A stretch of 64,000 nucleotides of DNA from contig PUDQ02000024.1 of the NCBI GenBank assembly GCA_002964805.2, positions 558,001 to 622,000 of the forward strand, read 5' to 3'. The position numbers and the translations under genes were made by a program. Each line of letters opens with the position of its first letter. Within the stretch, counting starts at the first letter, position 1. Under the pieces are notes generated by a model. It was not told the origin of the DNA and did not search any database. It was given only the letters and a program-made list of their open reading frames with translations. The DNA comes from Trametes villosa (Eukaryota > Basidiomycota > Agaricomycetes > Polyporales > Polyporaceae). This document shows positions 12,851-27,676 of this stretch, in pieces.

Positions 12851-15214
12851 ATGGCTGGTCTGCAGGCTGACACAGACATCCTCGCTGGCCTCGCAGAGGC
12901 CAAGCGCGTCGAGGCTGAGATCGACGAGAAGCACGCCCGGCTCGAGTCCACCACCTCCCACGAGCACGAGCTCGACGGCATTCACGACGGCCTCGAGTTC
13001 CCCACCGTTGAGGAGCGCAGCACCCTCCGTCGCGTCTCCGACACCATCCCCTGGAGCGCCTACCGTACGTATCCCTCCGCGTCCAATCGCAGCCCGCCCG
13101 ATGGTGGCACGGCAAACGTCGCACCCAGGACCCCTGGAAAGGGCCAAGATCTTGTAACGAACTAGAAATGTCGTAAATCCCTTTGTCCCGACAAAGACAT
13201 TTCTAGCTCGGTACAGGATTGCGTCCATGTCAGAGACCCCGGAGTTGCTGGATGTTCGGCGTGTGGAGGAACTGGATCGTCACGCAGTATATCCAGTTCT
13301 TCGACTCGTGACAAGGAGACAGATCCGTGACCAGTTACGATTCACTTCTTGACCTTCAACCACCACCATCGCTCTGTAGGCGTAGTGTTTCGCTCTCGTT
13401 GTTTTCGTCCTGCCCACCCTCGGCTCGAGTCCGCGCTCACCCTGTCATCCCCCAGTGATCGCGTTCTGCGAGCTATCGGAGCGGTTCTCGTACTATGGGT
13501 CCACCGTCGTATTTGTGCGTGCTCTCGATCCCCGATCGACATCGCTTTGCGCTGATCGCTACCCCGCGTGCTGCAGACGAACTTCATCCAGCAGCCGCTC
13601 CCGCCAGGCTCGCGCACGGGCGCCAACGTCAAGCAGGCCGGCGCCCTCGGCCTCGGCCAGCGCGCCTCCACCGGCATCGGCACCTTCAACACCTTCTGGG
13701 TGTACATTATCCCCCTCTTCGGCGCGTACATCGCCGACACGCGATGGGGTCGGTTCAAGACCACCTGCATCGCTGTCGCTGTCGCGCTCGTCGGCCACGT
13801 CCTCCTGATCATCTCCGCGGTCCCCGGTGTCATCGAGCACTCCCATGGCGCGCTCGCATGCTTCATCATCGCCATTATCATCATGGGTGTCGGCACGGGT
13901 GGCTTCAAGGCAAACGTCTCGCCGCTCGTTGCTGAGCAGTACAAGCGCTCCAAGCTCTTCATCGGCCACACCAAGGAGGGCGAGCGTGTCATCGTCGATC
14001 CCCTCATGACGACCTCCCGGATTTACATGTACTTCTACCTGTTCATCAACGTCGGGTCGCTCATTGGCCAGATCTCCATGGCTTACTCGGAGAAGGTGCG
14101 CTTTCTCGTCTCTGCTCTCGGCTGGTCAGGGTACTGACAGAATCCTGCAGTACGTCGGGTTCTGGCTCTCGTACACGCTCCCTACGCTCGTCTTCGGCAT
14201 TTGCCCCTTCGTCCTGTACTTTGGTCGCCACCTCTACGTCACCTCTCCCCCTACAGGATCGGTTCTCGGCAAGTCTCTGCGGATCTGGCGCTACGCCGCC
14301 AAGGGCCGCTGGACGTGGAACCCCGTGCAGACGTACCGCAACCTCAACGCCCCCGATTTCTGGGAGAACGTGAAGCCCAGCAACTTCAACAGCGAGACCC
14401 GCCCGAACTGGATGACCTTTGACGACCAGTGGGTCGACGAGGTCAAGCGCGGCTTCAGGGCGTGCAGCGTGTTCCTGTGGTTCCCCATCTACTGTGAGTA
14501 GATCATTGTTTAGGGCCTCTGTTGCGATTTGACTGACTGTATGTTTCGCAATCAGGGCTCACCTACAACCAGCTCAACAACAACCTGACGTCCCAGGCCG
14601 CGACGATGGTCACGAACGGCATCCCCAACGATGTTCTGTCGAACCTCGACCCCTTCGCGCTCATCATCTTCATCCCCATCGTCGACCAGTTCGTCTACCC
14701 CGCCCTGCGCCGCGCCAAGATCAACTTCTCGCCCCTGAAGCGCATCACGCTCGGCTTCTTCCTCGGCTCCTTCGCGATGATCTGGGCCGCCGTCGTGCAG
14801 CACTACATCTACAAGCGCAACCCGTGCGGGTACCACGTCGCGACGTGCACGGACAGCGCGGGCGAGCCGCTCACGTCGGACCTGAACGTGTGGATCCAGA
14901 CGGGGTCGTATGTGCTCATCGCGTTCTCCGAGATCTTCGCGTCGATCACCGGGCTGGAGTACGCGTTCACGAAGGCGCCGAAGAACATGCGCTCGCTCGT
15001 GATGAGCGTGTTCCTGTTCATGCAGGCGATCTCCGCCGCGCTCGGGGAGGCGTTCGTGTCGCTCGCGAGCGACCCGCTCCTGGTGTGGAACTACGGCGTC
15101 ATGGGCGTGCTCGCGTTCATCGCCGGCGTGATCTTCTGGTTCCAGTACCGCACGCTCGACTCGCAGGAGGACGAGCTCAACAACCTCTCCGAGGGCCACT
15201 ACGAGGCGAACTAA
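12851..15214 (+). CDS. PTR2: Proton-coupled peptide transporter (POT/PTR2 family)
   Basis: Plasma-membrane di/tripeptide importer driven by the proton gradient. Five exons: 12851-13064, 13456-13514, 13577-14095, 14151-14493 and 14556-15214, giving 597 aa, a typical fungal Ptr2 length. The proton-coupling ExxER motif is visible as ELSERFSYYG, reached across the intron 1 splice. The POT signature region follows: FGAYIADTRWGRFKT and then GTGGFKANVSPLVAEQY. The WLTYNQLNNNLTSQA segment starts the second half, and the LFMQAISAALGEA helix is near the C-terminus. The N-terminal 60-70 residues are acidic and cytosolic. Intron 1 (391 nt) is much longer than the others and carries a hairpin (separate entry). 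A TATA-like element is near 12713. The stop follows a short hydrophilic tail. Confidence 0.95.
13162..13206. repeat. Inverted-repeat hairpin inside PTR2 intron 1
   Basis: The left arm CTAGAAATGT and inner arm CTTTGTC pair with GACAAAG directly followed by ACATTTCTAG. A 9-nt bulge sits in the left arm and the loop is CC. The stem is AT-richer than its surroundings and lies inside an unusually long first intron. It could be a tiny MITE-like insertion or a structured intron element. No other copy was noticed by eye in this window. Confidence 0.6.
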
Positions 15215-15754
15215 AATCCCGGGCCCCCTTCCTCACCCTCTTCTCCCGTTTTTGCGACCTCCTCCGCCTTTACCCCGTTTTCTTGCCCCCACCCCGGATT
15301 TGTCCTCTTGGTAGCCCCGCGATGTCGTTCTCCCGTTCTCCCCGGACCGTGTACGTGTATATTCCGCGCGTGTCGCGCTCATGTCTTGATGATGACGACC
15401 AGTCGACGATATATCCCCCCATCACACGCGCCGTGTTGTAGAGCAGTCGTCTTCGTGCTGTTTGCTGTTGCTGTTCGATATATTGGTAGTAGCGGGTAGG
15501 CCCTAACGAAGTAGCTAATGTGCGAGTAATGCATACCACGCATCGAAACTCTGAATCTGTCCGGTTCTCAGAGCTCAAGATCTCATGTGTGCACCGATGG
15601 GCGCTGCGTGCGCGTGAAGGCTTCTGTCAGGGTCGAGCTGGTACATTTGTAATAAGCGCCCGTATGCGGGATGGACTTGGACCGTGTCCATGACGCTCCT
15701 GCGAGTGCGACCGCATACACCCACCTCCCTCGCCTTCACGAAACAACACAACAG
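15215..15754. other. Intergenic spacer, PTR2 to JmjC gene
   Basis: About 540 nt, including the pyrimidine-rich 3' region of the PTR2 gene. No gene recognised. An in-frame ATG at 15684 could extend the next gene upstream (see that entry). Confidence 0.45.
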
Positions 15755-16788
15755 ATGCAACCATCTCCGTAGCTTCATTGGTAGCTCTGCACGCGATGGC
15801 TACCTATTCCTGAGAACGCGCCCCGTCCCCGAGGCTCCGCCCGCCCTCGCCGCCTCGCCGCACGCCTTCCTCGAGTACCTCCGCGCGCCCAGCGCCGCCC
15901 CATTCCTCCTCCGCACCCTCGCGCGCCCGGACGGCCCCTCCAAGGCGGAGACGCTGTTGCGCACGTTGCGCGCGGCGGGCGACCGCCTCGTCGAGGTCGA
16001 GGTCGGGCGGTACGACAAGCCGGGCGCGGGCGGGCGCGTGGACGTCCCGCTGAGCGTGTACTTGGAGTGGTTGGCGGGCGCGCAGGGTGCTGGGGAGGGC
16101 GAGCGGATGCAGCTATACCTTGCGCAGTGGAGAGCGTGCGATGAGGTGCGTTGAACCTACGTCTTCAGTTTCGCAGGTGCTGAATGCTCTTGTCTGTGTG
16201 CTGCAGGTTCCCGGACTTGTGGATGCAGTACAAGCCCCGTCTCTCCTCTCGCCGCTCCTTGAGGATGGTTCGGTGGACCTGTACCAGACAAGCTTCTTCG
16301 TAGGCCCTTCTGCGACGGTACGTTTTTCGCCACGGTTCGGGACGTCCCTCTAGTTAACGATTCTACGCCGCGCATAGGTGACACCGCTGCATTATGACCC
16401 GTACTTCAACCTCTACAACGTCTACGCGTCTTCAGACCCGGCGGGGCACGCGAAGCATTTCGTTCTCTTCCCGCCCTCCTTGTCGGAATACCTCTCGCGC
16501 GCGGACGGGTCTGTACTTCGGAACACCTCCCTCGTCGATCTCCATCTCCAGAAAGGCGCGGCTGAAGACGAGTTAGAGGTCGCGATCGACCCGAGGACCG
16601 CCCCCGTAAACACGAGGGAGGCTCTCGCCAAGTCCGACTCCGCCCTGAGCTGTGTCCTGCGCGAGGGCGACACGCTTTTCGTGCCGCGCAAGTGGTGGCA
16701 CCGCGTCGAGAACGTCCGGTTGCGGGATACGGCGGCGACAGGCTGGACGGCGGGCGTCGGATGGTGGTTTCTGCCGCGGAATTTTTGA
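15755..16788 (+). CDS. JmjC/cupin_8 domain protein (Fe(II)/2OG oxygenase-like)
   Basis: Small JmjC (cupin_8) protein of the JMJD7/TYW5-like type; the substrate is not deducible. Preferred model: 15755-15768, 15815-16145, 16207-16317 and 16378-16788 (288 aa). An alternative start at 15684, with no first intron, is open in the same frame. The metal site is intact: H-x-D in TPLHYDPYFN (residues about 155-165) and the distal His in FVPRKWWHRVENV. KHFVLFPP carries the usual co-substrate Lys position. The C-terminus GWTAGVGWWF is typical of the family. Exon 3 is 111 nt, a length reused exactly in the second chimera downstream. This gene is the parent of the JmjC halves of the two chimeric genes that follow. 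Confidence 0.82.
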
Positions 16789-18480
16789 CGGAAGGCTATC
16801 TTTGCCTGTGACCTTGACTTACAGGAGTCGCGACAACTTGGCACGCGTAAGTACGCAAAGTTACTCATGAAGTTTCTACCAAGGGGGACTCTGTTTGCTG
16901 AATGGCGATTCGCATGCAGGCTCCAAGTACCAAGACGCGCAAAGTGTGCTGGAAAAAAGACGTACTTGCCACCCACCGACTTGGCAGCACTCAAGTCCGA
17001 CACGGGCTGCGCGATTCTGAGGCTCCCGCAGTCGTCTCGTACGTCGCACTCAAGTGCTCACGTGTGACTGCGAGTGGCGGTCGCGACGCACCCACACGGT
17101 GATAACCTCGGCTATTGGACCTCTCTTCCCGCTCCCACCAACGCCACAAAATCCGCATCCCGAATATGTCAAGTTTCTTTTGGAGCTAATATACACCTGG
17201 CGAACTTTCTCAAGGGCGCCTACTCGGCCATGAGGCGTCCGTGCTTTATCTGCCGATATATATCGGCCCCTCTACGATCTGAGAAGGCGGTAATATTCGT
17301 TTTCTAAGGACGCTCAATCATCGCAGGGGTGCGCCACTTATACGGCACGCTTCCCTTATAACGAACCACGCATATAAGTCGTCCTAGTATCGCGCTAGTA
17401 CTACGTCCTGCTACTATGTCTGGCGACGTCCAACTGCGTAGGGCCGATCACGTAGCCTACAGGTTATACCCCAAACTGGCCCAGCTTGTTAGCAATGCAA
17501 GAGCTACCGTGGAGCCCGATTCCAATGGGAGGATCGACAAGTGGGTGAGTGTTCTCCGTTGGTGACCCATTCAAGTCTCATGTAACATTCTCGCCACGGC
17601 TGTAGTTCAACCTGGAGACTCCCCACTACAAGCTCTTCGAGAAACCCATCTCCCCATATCGCACTATCTCGTCCGCTATATCCGTGCCCATTTTCCAGAT
17701 CCAAGTCCTCCTCTGCATCCCCAAGCTGGCCCCGAACCAGGTGCTGCGATGTATCGCCCCCGACTTTTACGTGCGCGTCGAACCCGCCCCGCGGTTCATC
17801 ATGCTCGAGTCCTGGGACCTTGAATTCATCGGGCACCCAGACGGCCATGCTCACACCGATGCCGCGCCTCCCGCGATGTACAAGCACGCCATCTCGCTCT
17901 TTCGGGGCATATTCACGCTGCTCCGCGTCCTGCCCGCCTGGCAATTGGCTCGGCGCCTGCGCGAGCGAGCGTGCGGCGGGACGTGCCTGGATGGCGGATT
18001 CAGCATCCTCCTCCGCTTAGACAACGTGAACGACGGAATCAGCCCGAATGAGATCATGACCTTTGGTGAGTCCTTAGCTTTCCATCAAACTGCAGGTTCA
18101 TCTTATGCGCGAGAACAATGATCGTTAACCAAGGCTTCGGAATCCAGATAACACCCCTGCTTCTCTCGCGACGGTATTGCAGAACGAGAGGCATTCGCTT
18201 CCTTCTATCGCACATCCCGTCGGCGAGCTGAGCTTCTCAGTGACCTACCTGCTCGACCCTAAGTTTGATCTGGAGACAACAGAGGCGCTCCACCCTCCGC
18301 GATTCCCTTCAGGTGACTCGGACCTCACCCCGACGTCCTTGCCCGGAGGCGAGAATGCGCGCACGCCATTGTCGCTTCTGCAACAATTGCTACAGGGTGG
18401 ATACAAGCAGGACGACGAGCCGGAAAACGAGCCGGCCTTATACGATAGCCTGGCCGACCCTCTCGATCTCTCACAATGGT
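16059..18480 (+). repeat. Tandem duplication unit 1 (JmjC 3' half - spacer - ATG13 5' half)
   Basis: First of three diverged copies of a segment of about 2.4 kb. It starts inside the JmjC gene (around YLEWLAGAQ) and ends inside an ATG13-like coding region. Boundaries are approximate because the copies are diverged. Shared non-coding blocks support duplication of the whole segment and not just its exons. Confidence 0.7.
16789..17415. other. Duplicated spacer with promoter of chimera 1
   Basis: Holds blocks shared with the other two spacers. CACGCGTAAGTACGCA (near 16845) and GACTCTGTTTGCTGAA (near 16888) recur after chimera 2. GAGAAGGCGGTAATATTCG (17281) recurs with small changes upstream of chimera 2 at 19667. 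A CATATAAG element lies at about 17370, some 45 nt before the start codon. Confidence 0.6.
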
Positions 18481-19138
18481 CGGTGGGCGACAAAGTACGT
18501 AGATTCAAGGGCCTCTTTCTAGTGTGCCTGCGCCCCCGCGAGCAGCTGACTGAACGGAATCCCAGACACGATGGCCCACGGCAGGTGTGGGGGACTCGTC
18601 GTTCCTTGACAGCCGCGCAATGTTCCTGCTAGAGCAAGCTCGTCGCCTCGATGGCCCCCCTGCGACGGTGAGCCGCATCGTTTTACAATTTAGACGGCGC
18701 GCCGTGTGGCACGCGATATTGATGACGTCCTCACAGCTCTACGACCAATACAACAATTCCGACGTCGACTATGCGTCGTCAACCCACGGGCTTTGGATGA
18801 CGGACCTCGCGCAACTCTCGACTTCCCGATCAGAATACTTGCCGCACATATTCGGGTCTGTACCACCGGGCACCTCTCTGGAGGACTTCGAACGCCGGCA
18901 GGGCGCATCCAATGCTCACTACGAGGTCGCAATTCGCTCGAGTACGTCATTATCGAACATGAGCGACGATCTCGCTCAGTCAGCCTCCGTCCCGAGACGT
19001 ATCCGGCTCGAGGATGACGCGCCGCCCCAGTGGTTGTACCGCATGGAAGACGTCCCAATGCAAGGCATATCGGTCTCCACCACATCGACAGACTGGGGCG
19101 CGGGCATTGGCTGGGGCTCTCTGTCGCGGAGCTCTTGA
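17416..19138 (+). CDS. Chimeric ATG13-HORMA / JmjC-like protein, copy 1
   Basis: Predicted 479-aa fusion. Exons: 17416-17544, 17606-18065, 18148-18494, 18566-18667 and 18737-19138. Residues 1 to about 245 follow the Atg13 HORMA domain (YRLYPKLAQLV, QVLLCIPKLAPNQVL, FIMLESWDLEF, AHPVGELSFSVTYL). The linker to about residue 312 is acidic. Residues about 313-479 follow the JmjC gene (DGPPATV, then LYDQYNNSDVDYASS, then DWGAGIGWGSLSRSS). The JmjC H-x-D has become L-Y-D and the distal His position (WWHRVENV in the parent) reads WLYRMEDV. Two metal ligands are therefore gone and catalysis is unlikely. Atg13's long disordered tail is absent. Intron 4 (18668-18736, 69 nt) is open and in frame, so its retention would not break the protein. 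This is the most diverged copy. Expression is unknown; an old pseudogene is possible, but the open frame across five exons argues against it. Confidence 0.72.
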
Positions 19139-20898
19139 TGGGGGACACGTTCGGGGGACACGCTCGCTTGTGGCGTTCACTCTCGAGCCGGCACGCATAG
19201 GTATGTCGGTGATGTACAGTGCCTCTGCGAGATGTTTTTTTGCTCAAAGATATTCTGCATCCTGTGGCGACCACGCGCTCAGCGCGGCAAGGTGCCCGAG
19301 GAAGAGTAGGAACCATTCGAGCAGTGCACCGGCGCGCATGATACGGTGCGAAGACAGGCTTGCCGCCACAAATCAATGTGAAGCCGCACAACAGCTATCA
19401 AATTACGACACCCGTGCCCAAAGGGGCGGTGGACCTGAGCCGCGCGGGGCCATTTCGAGGGCGCCCGCTGCAGCGTAGACTAGCGATCACGGCGGACTCG
19501 CGTGGAGGCATCTCAAGCTTCCCTCGTACAGCCCCCTCACCAATACCGAACACTGCAACGAACGTATCTCGGAGCTGATGTATAGGTTGTAAACGTAAAC
19601 AAAGGCGTCTCCCCGATCCCGAGACGCTTTCCATCTGTCCTACCAAGTACACAGCCTCCTGCGCCCTGAGAAGACGGTGATATTCGTTTTATTAGGCCCG
19701 ATCATGGCGGAGACACCCACTTACGGTATCCCTCCCCCGCCACCCGCTCGAACCACACATATATTGCCTGGATGCCCTCTGCTCAATTCTAACCGCACAC
19801 TATAGTACCCGCGACCAGCCATGTCCGATGACTTCCGGAAAGCCGATCAAATAGCCCACAAGCTGTACTGTAAACTGGCTTCGGTGGTTAACCATGCGCG
19901 GGCCACACTGAAGCCGCCTCCAAATGCGAAGGTGGACAAGTGGGTGAGTATCCTACCTCTTGACGTGTCTGCTTCGGCTCCGCTTAACACTACTGCCGGG
20001 GCGTAGTTTGGTCTAGAGACTCCGCGGACCGAGCTCTTCGAGGAGCACACCTCGATGTATCGCTCTCTCTCATCCGCCCCCTCAGTTCCCGGCTTGCGGC
20101 TTCAGGTCCTCCTCTGCATCCCCGAGCTAGCCACAAACCAGGCGCTCTTCCACGTCGCCCCGGACTCCTCCCGTGTGCGCATCGCCTCCCCCGCCTCCGC
20201 CGGCCCGCGTTTAAAGTCCATCGTGCTCGAGTCTTGGGACGTCCAGTTCTCCCCGAACTACGATGGTCCCCAGGAAGACGAGGCCCACACTGGCGTCGCG
20301 CCGCCCGCGATGTACCAGCACGGCGTCTCGCTCTTCCGGTGCATATTCACGCTCCTGCGCGTGCTCCCCATTGGGAAGCTTGCGCGGCGCCTCCGCCGAC
20401 GGTTTGGCGCCAACGCGAATATCCCGCCTGGCCAATTCAGCATTCGCGTCCGGGTGGATAGCGAGGACGAGAATATCCGCCCACACGAGATCATGACATT
20501 TGGTGAGTTAATAATTGGGTGCAGTCCCACGGGCGGCGGGCGAGAATAATGGTCGCTAACCGAGGCTTCGAAAACCAGATACCATTCCCGCGTCTGCATC
20601 GGCGGTGTTGAAGACGCAGAGGCAGGTGCTCCCTCCCATCACGCACCCCATGGGCGAACTGGGTGTTTCCGTGACGTACCTTACCGACCCAAACTTCAAG
20701 CTGGAGACCAGCGAAGAACCGCTCTTCCGGTGGTCGCCCCCCGGCGCCTCCGGCTACTCCCCAACGGTCCCGTCTCAGCTCGCGCCCCTGCGCGCGTCAC
20801 GCCAGCAAACTTCCTCACCGCTCGAGGAATTCGAGCAGCATGACGAAACCACTCGTAAAGAGGCCTCTCACGATGATAAGGGTGATGCTTTCAGAGAT
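18481..20898 (+). repeat. Tandem duplication unit 2
   Basis: Second copy of the segment: the JmjC-like end of chimera 1, a spacer, and the ATG13-like start of chimera 2. Edges are approximate. The right edge lies between about 20765 (end of clear ATG13 similarity) and 20899 (HLEWLAEMQ, matching YLEWLAGAQ of the JmjC gene). Confidence 0.68.
19139..19820. other. Duplicated spacer with promoter of chimera 2
   Basis: Shares CACGCATAGGTATGT just after the chimera 1 stop with the other post-JmjC spacers. GAGAAGACGGTGATATTCG (19667) is shared with the spacer upstream of chimera 1. A CACATATATTG element lies about 65 nt before the next start codon. No further gene seen. Confidence 0.58.
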
Positions 20899-21627
20899 CA
20901 TCTAGAGTGGCTAGCAGAGATGCAGGCCCGCCCGCGAGAGAGCGGAAAGACGCAGCCGCTCCGTGCGCCGCTGAAGGCCAGTGAGGAGGTGCGTCAAAGC
21001 TCAATGTTGCCTTTTGTTCAGCGTTTCCGAGGAACTGCCTAAACAACGTATTAGATGTCCGGTCTCGTAGAGGCCCTGCGCAACTCGCCTATCCGCTTGT
21101 CGCTGCTCGACAACCGTGCTGCCGGCCGGCGCTCGCCGGGTCTCCTCCGTGACCCTTCTGCTACGGTAAGTTTCTTTGTGCATGACTTCTGGCGGTAAAC
21201 CCGTTCTTGGGTCCGGTGCCCGATATTGATGACACCGCAGCAGCACTACGGCCCCTATGATAACCTCGATGTCGTCTACGCGTCGTCGGACCACGGCCTG
21301 AAGAACCTCTCGCCTTGCCTATCGGAGTGCTTGTCGCGTCGAGGCGGGCCTATATCGGGCACCTCTATGGAGGACCTTAAACCCCGGCAGGGCACGTACG
21401 GCATCGCGTTAGAGGTCGCAACCGATCCGAGCATGGCCCCCGTGAACATACCAGACGCCCTCGCACAGTCAAACTCCGCCTCGAATCGTGTCCTGCGCGA
21501 GGGCGCCGTGTCGCGCCAGTGGTTGGATCGCCTCGAGGAAGTCCGAAGGCAAGGCACGCCAGGCTCTACAGCGTCAGCCGACTGGACGGCGGGCGTTGGC
21601 TGGGGGCTTCCGCCGCAGAATTCCTGA
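19821..21627 (+). CDS. Chimeric ATG13-HORMA / JmjC-like protein, copy 2
   Basis: Predicted 508-aa fusion. Exons: 19821-19943, 20007-20502, 20579-20988, 21055-21165 and 21241-21627. Residues 1 to about 245 are close to the intact ATG13 copy (NHARATLKPPPNAKVDKW, LQVLLCIPELATNQALF, APDSSRVRI, THPMGELGVSVTYLTDPNF). From about residue 310 the protein follows the JmjC gene: HLEWLAEMQ, then a 37-codon exon identical in length to the parent exon (SGLVEAL ... RDPSATV), then YASSD and ADWTAGVGWGLPPQNS. The parent H-Y-D metal motif reads H-Y-G. The VPRKWWHRV segment is shortened to VSRQWLDRL, losing the distal His. The splice donor after the LEWLA exon (GAG|GTGCGT) is the same in parent and chimera. Likely a non-enzymatic JmjC fold attached to a HORMA domain; the function is unknown. 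Confidence 0.75.
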
Positions 21628-23270
21628 GGGAACGTCCGAAGCGGTCACGCTCGCCTGTGTTATTCACTTACGAGAGGGGCATGGCGACCCGACACGCGTA
21701 GGTACGCAGGCTATTTGCATGAGTGCTTCTGCGAACTCTGTTTGCTGAAGGCTGTTTCGTAGGCGCGTGCGTCTTCCAGGCGAGGCGCGACCGTGCGATC
21801 TGCGTCGCAAGGTGGCCGTCGGCGGACACATCGCCCCAGGCACGCTGGTACGAGCCACCACGACGTGCAGGGCAGAGGGGAGAGAAGGCGTGCTTGTCGC
21901 CTTTTGCTTTTGTCGATGGGGGGAACGTGTCGGACACCGGTCGGGGCAGCAGCTATCGATTTCGCAGCACCCAAGGACAAGCCTGAGCAGATCGGCGGAT
22001 ATTGAATGTGGGCACGCCTCGCTGCGCGCATGCTGTATTTGTAGAACTTCGTCTTTGGAAAGAAACGGTTCTTTGTCTCAGAGTCGCTGACTGGGCGTGA
22101 CTCGCACGGAAGCGGAGGAGGAGGAGCGGTCGAATTAGGCACCTTGGGGGACGGGGCGATTGGCGGAGACGGCGGGCGCCTACCGGATCGAGTGCGCTCA
22201 TCCGCGGCACGCGCGCGCGGCGGCAGCCTCGACTCGTCCTCCTTTCCTCCTCCCACCACCTCCCCCCACCTCCCACCGCCTCCTCGAGCCATACATATAC
22301 GACCCTAATGTCTCGCTAGTCCGCCTGCACGTCGTCACGCCCGCGCCCTGCCATGTCCAATGACACCCAGAGGGCCGACCAGATAGCTCACAGGTTATAC
22401 TCTAAACTCGCCCTAGTCGTCAACCATGCCCGAGCCACCGTCGAGCCCCCGCCCAACGCAAAGGTCGACAAGTGGGTGAGTTATCCGCGGCTACTCTCTG
22501 GGTGCTCCTTTAACACCCCCCTGCGCGGCAGTTCAACCTCGAGACTCCAGACCCGGAGCTCTTCAAGGAGCACACCCGTATCTATCGCTCTATCTCGTCC
22601 GCCCCCTCCGTCCCTCTCTTCCGGCTCCAAGTTCTCCTCTGCATCCCCGAGCTAGCCACGAACCAGGTGCTCGTCTACGTCGCTCCGGACTCCTCTCGTG
22701 TGCGCATCGACCCCACTCCGCGCTATATCGTGCTCGAGTCCTGGGACCTTGAATTTGCCCCGAACAGCGGTGGGCCCCAGGACAGCGACGACCGCATCGA
22801 TGTCGCCCCATCCACGATTTACAAGCATGGCATCCCGCTCTTCCGGAGCATATTCACGCTGCTCCGCGTGCTGCCCGCCTGGAAGCTCGCCCGGCGCCTC
22901 CGCAGGCGGGTGGGTGGCAGCCGGAATGGCCAGTTCAGCATCCGCCTTCGGGTGGACAGCGTGGACGGAAGCGTGCGCCCTGATGAGATTATGACCTTTG
23001 GTGAGTCACTTGTCACCTGCGTGCAATCCGAGCACGGGCGCGCGAGAACAATCGCCGCTAACCGAGGCTTCGAAAACCAGATACCACCCCCGCGTCTGCT
23101 GCGACGGTATTGAACAGGGAGAGGCATGTGCTGCCCCCCATCCCACACCCCATGGGCGAGCTGGGCATCTCTGCGACCTACCTCACCCAGCCCAACTTCC
23201 AGCTGGACACCAAGGAGTCGCTGCTCTCTTCGCGGTTCCTTTCGGAGGGCCCGGATTTCACGCCGACGCT
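20899..23270 (+). repeat. Tandem duplication unit 3
   Basis: Third copy: the JmjC-like 3' half of chimera 2, a spacer, and the 5' part of the intact ATG13 up to about the DFTPTLV codons, beyond which ATG13 continues into unduplicated sequence. Edges are approximate. Confidence 0.68.
21628..22352. other. Duplicated spacer with ATG13 promoter
   Basis: After the chimera 2 stop, CACGCGTAGGTACGCA (near 21694) and AACTCTGTTTGCTGAA (near 21734) match the spacer after the parental JmjC gene. The ATG13-proximal part is C-rich, ending with CATACATATACGACC about 60 nt before the start codon. Confidence 0.58.
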
Positions 23271-24880
23271 GGTCAAGAACCAGCAGCGCGACAGCATATC
23301 GGGGTCACCCGGGAGTCTAGCCCTGCGCACGTCGCTCCCTCGATCACCACCACGCTCTGTTGCGGACAGATTCGTGGTCCCGCCGTCCACACACGCTCGA
23401 ACTACCTCCTTCTCCTCGACACAGGGTGTGCGGGGTAGCCCGAGTGGCAGCCCGCGGCTGGGCAACATTCCGCTTCCGGTCACACGCAATCTATCTGGAG
23501 CCGGCATGGGCACGTCTGGGGTGTCGGATTCGTCTTCGTCGAGGCAAGGTGCAGCTTCGCTGGGCTCGCGGGAGGACGTGTCTTCGCTGGCAGCGCGCGT
23601 CCGACGCGAGAGCATGCACGGTCGAAGCTCGGTATGCAACGTCATTATGTGGGTGTATGCGATCACTGATGCCCCTATAGCAGGACGGCACGACCCCCGG
23701 AGGGGTACCGATTCGCCGCACGCCCATCACGACCGTAAATGCGTTCAAGTCGTCTACCATCTCGTCAGGCTCGCCTTCTCTACATTCGCCGTCGCCCTCC
23801 CTCCGGCAACAGTCTCCGCTTTCAACCGGCGGCCCGTCACTCCCGTCTCGTCCAGCGCAGTCGCCTACGGCTTCCCGTGTGCCACCGTCGCCGATAGGTG
23901 TTGGGAGCAACTTCGCTTCGTCCCCTGTTGCCCCCTTCCGGCCTTCCCCGACGTTCGCACCCTCGAGCCTAGGCAGTGGACGATCTCCAGCATCTGGGGA
24001 GGGCGTGCCTGCAAGTCCCGCCTCAGGGGGCATGCAAGGCTCCCCGCGGCAGCAAGGACGCCGATACACGAGCAGCTTTGGCCCGCGCGTCCCCGGTGCA
24101 CCCGGCAGCCGCGAGGCGAGTCCGCGCGGCAGCCCGCGGGGCGCGGTGAAGGAGCTGGACAAGGTTCCGGTGAGTCGATCGCTGCTTTACGTGTAGAGAT
24201 CGTCGCGCTGAACGCGCGTGCGCACACAGGGCACGTCATACCTCACACACACGGACGATGACGACATCTCTGCGTTCGTGCAGGACATCGACGCGCGGCG
24301 CCCGCTCGCGAGCAGGCGCGACGGCGCCGAGTCGCCCATGTCTGCGCCTTCGCCCGCGCCCGCGCCTCTGCCGGCGTACGGGAGCCCGCCGCGGCATGCG
24401 CGCGAGCGCACGATTCGCGAGGTTTCCGAGTCGAGCGATAGTGCCGCCTCTCAGCCTGCGCGCGCGCCGTTCCCGATGCTCACGACGGAGGCGGACGTCG
24501 ACGAGCAGCTGCGCCGGATGAACGAGAACTTCCTCACGTCGCTGCAGGGCCTCGAGGGCCTCGGCGGCCGGCGCAACAGCAACAGCGGGAGCAGGAGCCC
24601 CGTCTCCACCACTGCCGCGGATCGGGGCACGAGCGTGCGCCGTGTCCCGCTCGACCCCATCGCGTTTGCTGGGGGTGCGCCGCGCACGAGTGCGCTGTCG
24701 ACGCCGCCGGACGGGGTGGGGCTGCCGCCGGGGTACGTGCGTCCGCGGCTGGGGTCGACGGGGAGCGTGCGGAGCGGGTTCAGCATCGCGTCGGAGGAGG
24801 TCATCGGGCGCATGGACCCTGAGATCGGCTCGTCGAGCGACGAGCGGCGGCGGAGCGCGCTCGGGCGCGAGTTCTCGTGA
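22353..24880 (+). CDS. ATG13: Autophagy protein Atg13 (HORMA domain, complete)
   Basis: Scaffold/regulator of the Atg1 kinase complex that starts autophagosome formation; the HORMA domain recruits PI3-kinase/Atg9 partners. Five exons: 22353-22475, 22532-23000, 23081-23631, 23681-24169 and 24230-24880, giving 760 aa. HORMA spans residues 1 to about 245 (QIAHRLYSKLALVVNHARAT, FRLQVLLCIPELATNQVLV, IYKHGIPLFRSIFTLLRVLP, HPMGELGISATYLT). The remainder is Ser/Pro-rich and disordered, as in other Atg13 proteins, and would carry the Atg1- and Atg17-binding and phosphorylation sites. It ends with FVQDIDARRPL, RMNENFLTSLQGLEGLGG and SGFSIASEEVIGRMDPE, all typical of basidiomycete Atg13. It is the only one of the three local copies that keeps this tail, so it should be the working autophagy gene. 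At exon 4 a CAG acceptor three bases downstream is also possible. Confidence 0.93.
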
Positions 24881-27590: not shown

Positions 27591-27676
27591 CCTTCGATAG
27601 CTCAGTTGGAAGAGCGCAGGACTGTAATGGTTAAACCGTCATCCTGATGTCGCTGGTTCGATCCCGGCTCGAAGGA
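27591..27676 (+). tRNA. tRNA-Tyr (GTA anticodon) with intron
   Basis: Cloverleaf folds by hand. Acceptor stem CCTTCGA/TCGAAGG, discriminator A. D stem GCTC/GAGC. Anticodon stem CAGGA/TCCTG with a seven-base loop CTGTAAA. The T arm is GCTGG-TTCGATC-CCGGC. The anticodon GTA is at 27624-27626. A 13-nt intron (27628-27640) sits one base 3' of the anticodon, the canonical place, and eukaryotic tRNA-Tyr genes normally carry an intron. Confidence 0.95.

Follow-up and report, generated by a model that had tools for sequence, protein, structure and literature searches.

Chimeric genes are known to arise by tandem duplication when the duplication ends inside genes, which places a fusion at the join between the repeats; that both parents stay intact follows from this geometry. 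The closest reported cases are polymorphic and many are very young. The locus described here, in Trametes villosa, resembles them in that a duplication appears to have ended inside two genes and left a fusion at the repeat join, but the fusion is strongly diverged, is itself duplicated and seems to be under purifying selection. The mode of origin, tandem-duplication fusion, is already known.

Two protein families are involved. Human ATG13, as described in PMC9931213, has a disordered tail that binds FIP200 and ULK1, and a HORMA domain that forms, together with ATG101, a groove for ATG9A. Like ATG13 (PF10033), the chimeras have a HORMA domain, and their introns 1 and 2 match those of ATG13 in position and phase. 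ATG13 at the locus has 760 aa, with a long tail and, next to HORMA, a conserved block; the chimeras have 479-508 aa, lack both and evolve faster. The second family comprises the JMJD5/KDM8-like Cupin_8 oxygenases. The C half of the chimeras descends from exons 2-3 of a neighbouring gene of this type, but has no intact metal-ligand set, lacks most of the invariant residues and gives no Pfam signal.

Gene models and domain content

The T. villosa genome analysed comprises 46.7 Mb in 140 contigs. Models of four genes were built from the sequence at 15.7-24.9 kb of the window, the whole stretch of 64,000 nucleotides that was analysed. The features, in window positions, are as follows.

15690..16788, + strand: JmjC/Cupin_8 parent gene, intact, JMJD5/KDM8-like, 325 aa; exons 15690-16145, 16207-16317, 16378-16788
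17182..17376, + strand: chimera 1 promoter region, homologous to the chimera 2 promoter; contains CGGTAATATTCGTTTT
17416..19138, + strand: chimera 1, ATG13 HORMA half (exons 1-3) and degenerate JmjC half (exons 4-5), 479 aa; exons 17416-17544, 17606-18065, 18148-18494, 18566-18667, 18737-19138
17416..18369, + strand: ATG13-derived part (HORMA) of chimera 1; nucleotide alignment to ATG13 until about 18335-18369
18595..19138, + strand: JmjC-derived part of chimera 1, in which neither metal-ligand histidine is left
19571..19763, + strand: chimera 2 promoter region, homologous to the chimera 1 promoter
19821..21627, + strand: chimera 2, ATG13 HORMA half and degenerate JmjC half, 508 aa; exons 19821-19943, 20007-20502, 20579-20988, 21055-21165, 21241-21627
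19821..20731, + strand: ATG13-derived part (HORMA) of chimera 2; nucleotide alignment, 73/91 invariant residues
20905..21627, + strand: JmjC-derived part of chimera 2; 20905-20988 probable only, exons 4-5 from 21055 clear
22353..24880, + strand: ATG13 parent gene, intact, 5 exons, 760 aa; comprises HORMA and a long remaining region

The JmjC parent matched Pfam Cupin_8 with 72.8 bits. When it was searched against the PDB, JMJD5/KDM8 was nearest among solved structures (best E 3.1e-11), and its identity to relatives in Trametes and other polypores was up to 71%. The ATG13 parent scored 161.5 bits against Pfam ATG13. Its HORMA part was 77-88% identical to that of 14 polypore orthologues and 57% identical to that of Lactarius (alignment A3, which used 15 of 24 matches). 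The nearest PDB entry to the HORMA part was S. pombe Atg13 of 4YK8, which we take to be its complex with Atg101. A profile search of the PDB aimed at human ATG13 returned only S. pombe 4YK8 and Lachancea 4J2G.

Both parent proteins were nearest to those of Trametes and allied polypores. ATG13 and JmjC proteins lay on equal-sized contigs in 11/13 of the named species with both matched, so the linkage of the two genes is old. The tags of the two genes are consecutive in Trametes cinnabarina (g3, g4), and the exceptions were Cubamyces menziesii and Dichomitus squalens. The JmjC proteins of T. versicolor and T. pubescens were matched, and no ATG13 so named was present among the 24 ATG13 matches; the ATG13 gene models of these species may be unusual or fall outside the searched length range. 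Directly upstream of the JmjC gene is an exon of a POT/PTR2-family transporter (14537-15214, 134.9 bits). A tRNA gene at 27591-27676 (Rfam, 55.7 bits) was missed by ARAGORN with the bacterial setting, perhaps because it contains an intron.

Both chimeras were modelled with five exons and translated without internal stops, in agreement with the first-pass annotation, which had reported two spliced open frames of 479 and 508 codons. The open frames were obtained with junctions 18494/18566 and 20988/21055. All of the chimera introns (8/8) are GT-AG, which is partly by construction because the boundaries were set at such sites using homology and the junctions of that annotation.

The same annotation had described both genes as starting like ATG13 and ending like the JmjC gene, and each end was borne out, the former by Pfam and the latter by DNA alignment of the C halves. 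PF10033 was found with 127.6 bits in chimera 1 and 144.7 bits in chimera 2 (cut-off 25), and the matches cover positions 3-233 and 2-233, respectively, of the 233 in the profile. Cupin_8 was found only in the JmjC parent in the full-length Pfam search. When the C halves were searched alone, 0 Pfam families were found at E<=10 for both copies, while the same stretch of the parent scored 72.3 bits. The C halves align instead at the nucleotide level with the last two exons (2-3) of the JmjC gene. JmjC positions 16065-16917 align with 20905-21764 of chimera 2 (E 2e-55), extending past the JmjC stop, and 16393-16791 align with 18740-19141 of chimera 1 (E 8e-29). Judged from the sequence, the match of the chimeras to ATG13 and JmjC is far beyond chance.

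The fusion and its origin

The gene order is J - A/J - A/J - A, where J is JmjC and A is ATG13, with corresponding introns. The two chimeras match each other at the nucleotide level in both the ATG13-side and the JmjC-side parts, and their 3' flanks are homologous. Homology to ATG13 ends near 18369 in chimera 1 and near 20731 in chimera 2. The source of roughly 18370-18594 and 20732-20904 is unclear, so the fusion point is only bracketed. Within chimera 2, 20905-20988 scored 13.1 against JmjC exon 1 alone, under the 95% level of shuffled sequences (17.0).

The introns differ in how much of their ancestry can still be read. Intron 2 of the chimeras is clearly ATG13-like. Similarity at intron 1 and the JmjC-side introns is close to that of shuffled sequence or exceeds it only slightly. 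For introns 3 and 4, likeness to the JmjC introns did not exceed that of shuffled sequence; their positions correspond. The 3' half of intron 2 is highly alike in both chimeras and ATG13 (18105-18147, 20536-20578 and 23038-23080) and contains a CTAAC- or TTAAC-like branch point; it is a possible intronic element.

The promoters of the chimeras (17182-17376 and 19571-19763) are 62.9% identical over a 202-column alignment (E 2e-9), and the ATG13 promoter aligns weakly with them. A 16-mer, CGGTRATATTCGTTTT, is found upstream of each chimera at 17288-17303 and 19675-19690. It is conspicuous against an identity of about 63% elsewhere in the promoters, and these are its sole exact matches in the 46.7 Mb genome. 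An element of a shared regulon was ruled out, as the exact 16-mer is confined to the two chimera promoters genome-wide.

The simplest origin consistent with this arrangement is a tandem duplication of [3' JmjC, intergenic, 5' ATG13]. The duplication would have ended inside the JmjC gene and inside ATG13, and its internal join would have created a gene with an ATG13-side promoter and a HORMA domain running into a JmjC tail. The two copies would most likely have arisen by one later duplication of the fusion. A partial tandem duplication also explains the architecture without domain shuffling. As in chimeric genes formed by tandem duplication, intact parents flank the locus, the 5' and 3' parts of the chimeras come from different parents, and the intergenic DNA is paralogous. 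Domain shuffling or transposition was ruled out on the grounds that the pieces keep a collinear order and their flanking DNA is paralogous, and no matches elsewhere in the genome were found among the best candidates scored. An assembly artefact was also ruled out, as the aligned copies differ at 26-39% of bases. The locus would show new-gene birth at several stages side by side: the parents are still intact, a fusion sits where the repeats meet, it has been copied once, and selection has acted for a long time since.

Kinship was examined with two trees. In the HORMA tree (21 rows, from 18 of 24 ATG13 matches, with P0018-P0020 and P0022-P0024 excluded), support is weak both for the pairing of the chimeras (70/82) and for their grouping with ATG13 of the window (60/64). 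The JmjC tree had 24 rows, from 21 of 50 matches; here the chimeras are sisters of each other (99/98), group weakly with the JmjC gene of the window (69/75) and, together with it, fall inside a nine-row Trametes/Pilatotrama clade (96/94). Branches of the chimeras in the HORMA tree measure 0.78 and 0.49 vs 0.055 for ATG13, and the placement of the chimeras is uncertain because both rows are long. Five of 20 invariant JmjC residues carry the same substitution in both chimeras (P32 to S, N49 to G, C92 to R, W107 to L and W130 to G). A single fusion followed by duplication is supported by these five identical replacements at otherwise invariant residues.

Retention, selection and rival readings

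The HORMA domain is well preserved. Of 91 HORMA residues that do not vary among 18 rows of polypore ATG13, the window's included, and Lactarius, chimera 1 keeps 72 and chimera 2 keeps 73. The block that follows HORMA in ATG13 (residues 241-300, exon 23081-23631) reads SLLSSRFLS..DFTPTLVKNQQRDS.SGSPGSL.LRTSLP.SPP and is strongly conserved from Trametes to Lactarius. This conservation suggests a binding motif, which would be lost from both chimeras. At 39 positions of the block invariant in 18 polypore rows, chimera 1 keeps 8/39 and chimera 2 keeps 2/39, a count in which the last columns could not score, the chimera rows ending at 260 and 268 aa. No clear counterpart of the block was found in the full exon 3 of either chimera. 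Likewise, nucleotide alignment gave no significant counterpart in either chimera for the rest of ATG13 exon 3 and exons 4-5.

The JmjC half is far more eroded. The JmjC alignments (A1 and A2) used 24 of 50 matches. Of 20 residues of JmjC exon 3 that are the same in all 25 rows, chimera 1 keeps 9 (11 lost) and chimera 2 keeps 8 (12 lost). The H-x-D...H positions, the metal ligands of the JmjC/Cupin_8 family, are affected in both copies. The first H is a gap in chimera 1 and is kept in chimera 2, the D is kept in chimera 1 and is G in chimera 2, and the distal H is Y in chimera 1 and D in chimera 2. With AlphaFold2, exon 3 of the JmjC parent alone gave pLDDT 86.8 and pTM 0.79. Exon 5 of chimera 2 alone, given the same family rows plus chimera 1 exon 5 and the parent exon, gave pLDDT 47.8 and pTM 0.33; use of a single exon and a shallow alignment limits this test. 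Despite these limits the contrast in pLDDT is large. The JmjC metal site and the remainder of ATG13 are gone from the chimeras, and the JmjC fold has probably been lost too.

Selection was examined with indels, a neutral simulation and codon models. Compared with the parents, a length divisible by 3 was found for 17/17 indels in exons 1, 2, 4 and 5 vs 5/12 in introns (Fisher p 0.0005); exon 3 was excluded, and indels common to both chimeras by inheritance count twice. In the C halves, 11/11 indels relative to JmjC are multiples of 3. When exon 2 of chimera 1 was aligned directly with that of chimera 2, two gaps, of lengths 1 and 20, departed from the multiple-of-3 pattern; they may be alignment noise. 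When neutral evolution was simulated over the aligned 239 + 146 codons, 5/600 runs remained stop-free for each chimera.

Codon models were fitted to 239 + 146 gap-free columns. With branch times shared across both halves in a joint model, omega was 0.38 (0.23-0.50) for the HORMA half of chimera 1 and 0.18 (0.12-0.27) for that of chimera 2. The C halves gave 0.56 (0.31-0.86) and 0.26 (0.16-0.38), respectively; the ranges are 5-95% from 32 bootstraps. The parents gave 0.13 (ATG13) and 0.53 (JmjC). These estimates depend on strongly diverged synonymous sites. In the joint fit, neutrality of all four halves was rejected (LRT 81.0 vs a maximum of 13.8 in 24 null simulations), as was neutrality of the C halves (LRT 35.9 vs a maximum of 5.7 in 24 simulations). 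Equal times on the chimera branches and the ATG13 branch were not rejected (lnL -3431.93 vs -3430.92). The HORMA halves fitted alone also rejected neutrality (lnL -2068.84 vs -2025.61). The C halves fitted alone gave omega 1.0 for chimera 1 and 0.43 for chimera 2, and neutrality of both was not rejected (lnL -1402.26 vs -1399.38, LRT 5.8, 2 d.f.). The changes unique to chimera 1 in HORMA are nearly even over codon positions (38/30/39), which looks relaxed; constraint on this copy may have been lost in part. The case for selection is stronger for chimera 2.

The best explanation of the whole, which we consider probable from sequence evidence, is a fusion formed by tandem duplication and then copied, with both copies under purifying selection, the JmjC site dead and the products HORMA-only paralogues of ATG13. 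Both copies would have diverged as protein-coding genes, with selection clearest on the HORMA half. The first-pass annotation had argued against neutral decay. The indel phase, the stop simulation and the joint codon model uphold that view, and the chimeras do not look like neutral debris, but the C halves taken alone do not reject neutrality. It is unlikely that the genes, chimera 1 above all, are decaying pseudogenes that were once coding, are now relaxed and have stayed open by luck. The long branches of the chimeras, the even spread of changes over codon positions in chimera 1, the separate fit of the C halves and the loss of the motif and metal ligands point that way. Such decay fits poorly with the in-frame indels (17/17), the joint LRT of 81 and a simulation in which just 5/600 neutral runs per chimera stayed free of stops.

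Slightly less likely again, and quite improbable, is that the halves are not joined at all. Retention of intron 3, or a transcript ending at that point, would then yield a short protein with HORMA only and leave the JmjC remnant untranslated. The frame of exon 3 does continue into intron 3, up to a stop at 18632 in chimera 1 and at 21042 in chimera 2, and the ancestry of the junction stretch is unclear. An untranslated remnant is difficult to reconcile with C-half omegas of 0.56 and 0.26 in the joint fit, with the LRT of 35.9 against C-half neutrality, or with 11/11 C-half indels that preserve the frame. The first-pass annotation had proposed a protein joining a HORMA domain to a JmjC fold. 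That the C half derives from a JMJD5-like gene is in keeping with a folded, perhaps catalytic, JmjC domain, but the triad is broken in both copies, neither C half has a Pfam family, and modelling of chimera 2 exon 5 fails (pLDDT 47.8) where the parent exon succeeds (86.8). That proposal is very improbable. On the best reading, the genes could aptly be called fast-evolving ATG13 chimeras with HORMA alone, whose JmjC-derived tail is dead and has been repurposed. A catalytic domain would have lost its active site while its coding frame stayed constrained.

Similar proteins and possible function

Searches with the ATG13 and JmjC proteins scored 7995 candidates in protein collections, and genomic DNA was searched in the source genome. 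No protein with both halves was present among 24, 0 and 50 matches in the protein collections, as assessed from coverage and precomputed domains; scoring was confined to word-sharing candidates in a length range. Residues 300-508 of chimera 2, used as a query, gave no match at E<=10 among 1735 candidates. Among the papers found by literature searches, titles and opening lines of abstracts contained nothing relevant on such a fusion or on Trametes ATG13. The statement in the first-pass annotation that no described family joins HORMA to JmjC thus stands within the matches and the portions of abstracts covered.

The chimera products would be expressed HORMA-only ATG13 paralogues. They would keep the HORMA surface for partners (Atg101, perhaps Atg9), while recruitment of the Atg1 kinase would be impossible. 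When autophagy is initiated, the chimeras could then compete with ATG13 or modulate it, and the former JmjC tail could become a new interaction or linker segment. Because the chimeras keep HORMA without the rest of ATG13, the most economical guess is that they compete for HORMA partners or serve these as an alternative adaptor, and a role as autophagy regulator or decoy is possible. Tentatively, they may be a HORMA-only paralogue pair that arose as a tandem-duplication fusion in one Trametes lineage and works either to restrain autophagy or as a HORMA adaptor in its own right. The pair would compete for Atg101/Atg9 but be unable to recruit Atg1, with the dead oxygenase tail as a new binding segment. 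If expressed, they would be a natural case in which HORMA of ATG13 is split from the kinase-binding tail, useful for studying what HORMA does alone. No HDIR-like tail was seen in the Atg9 locus when it was read by eye. The genome contains matches to both the Atg101 and Atg9 families.
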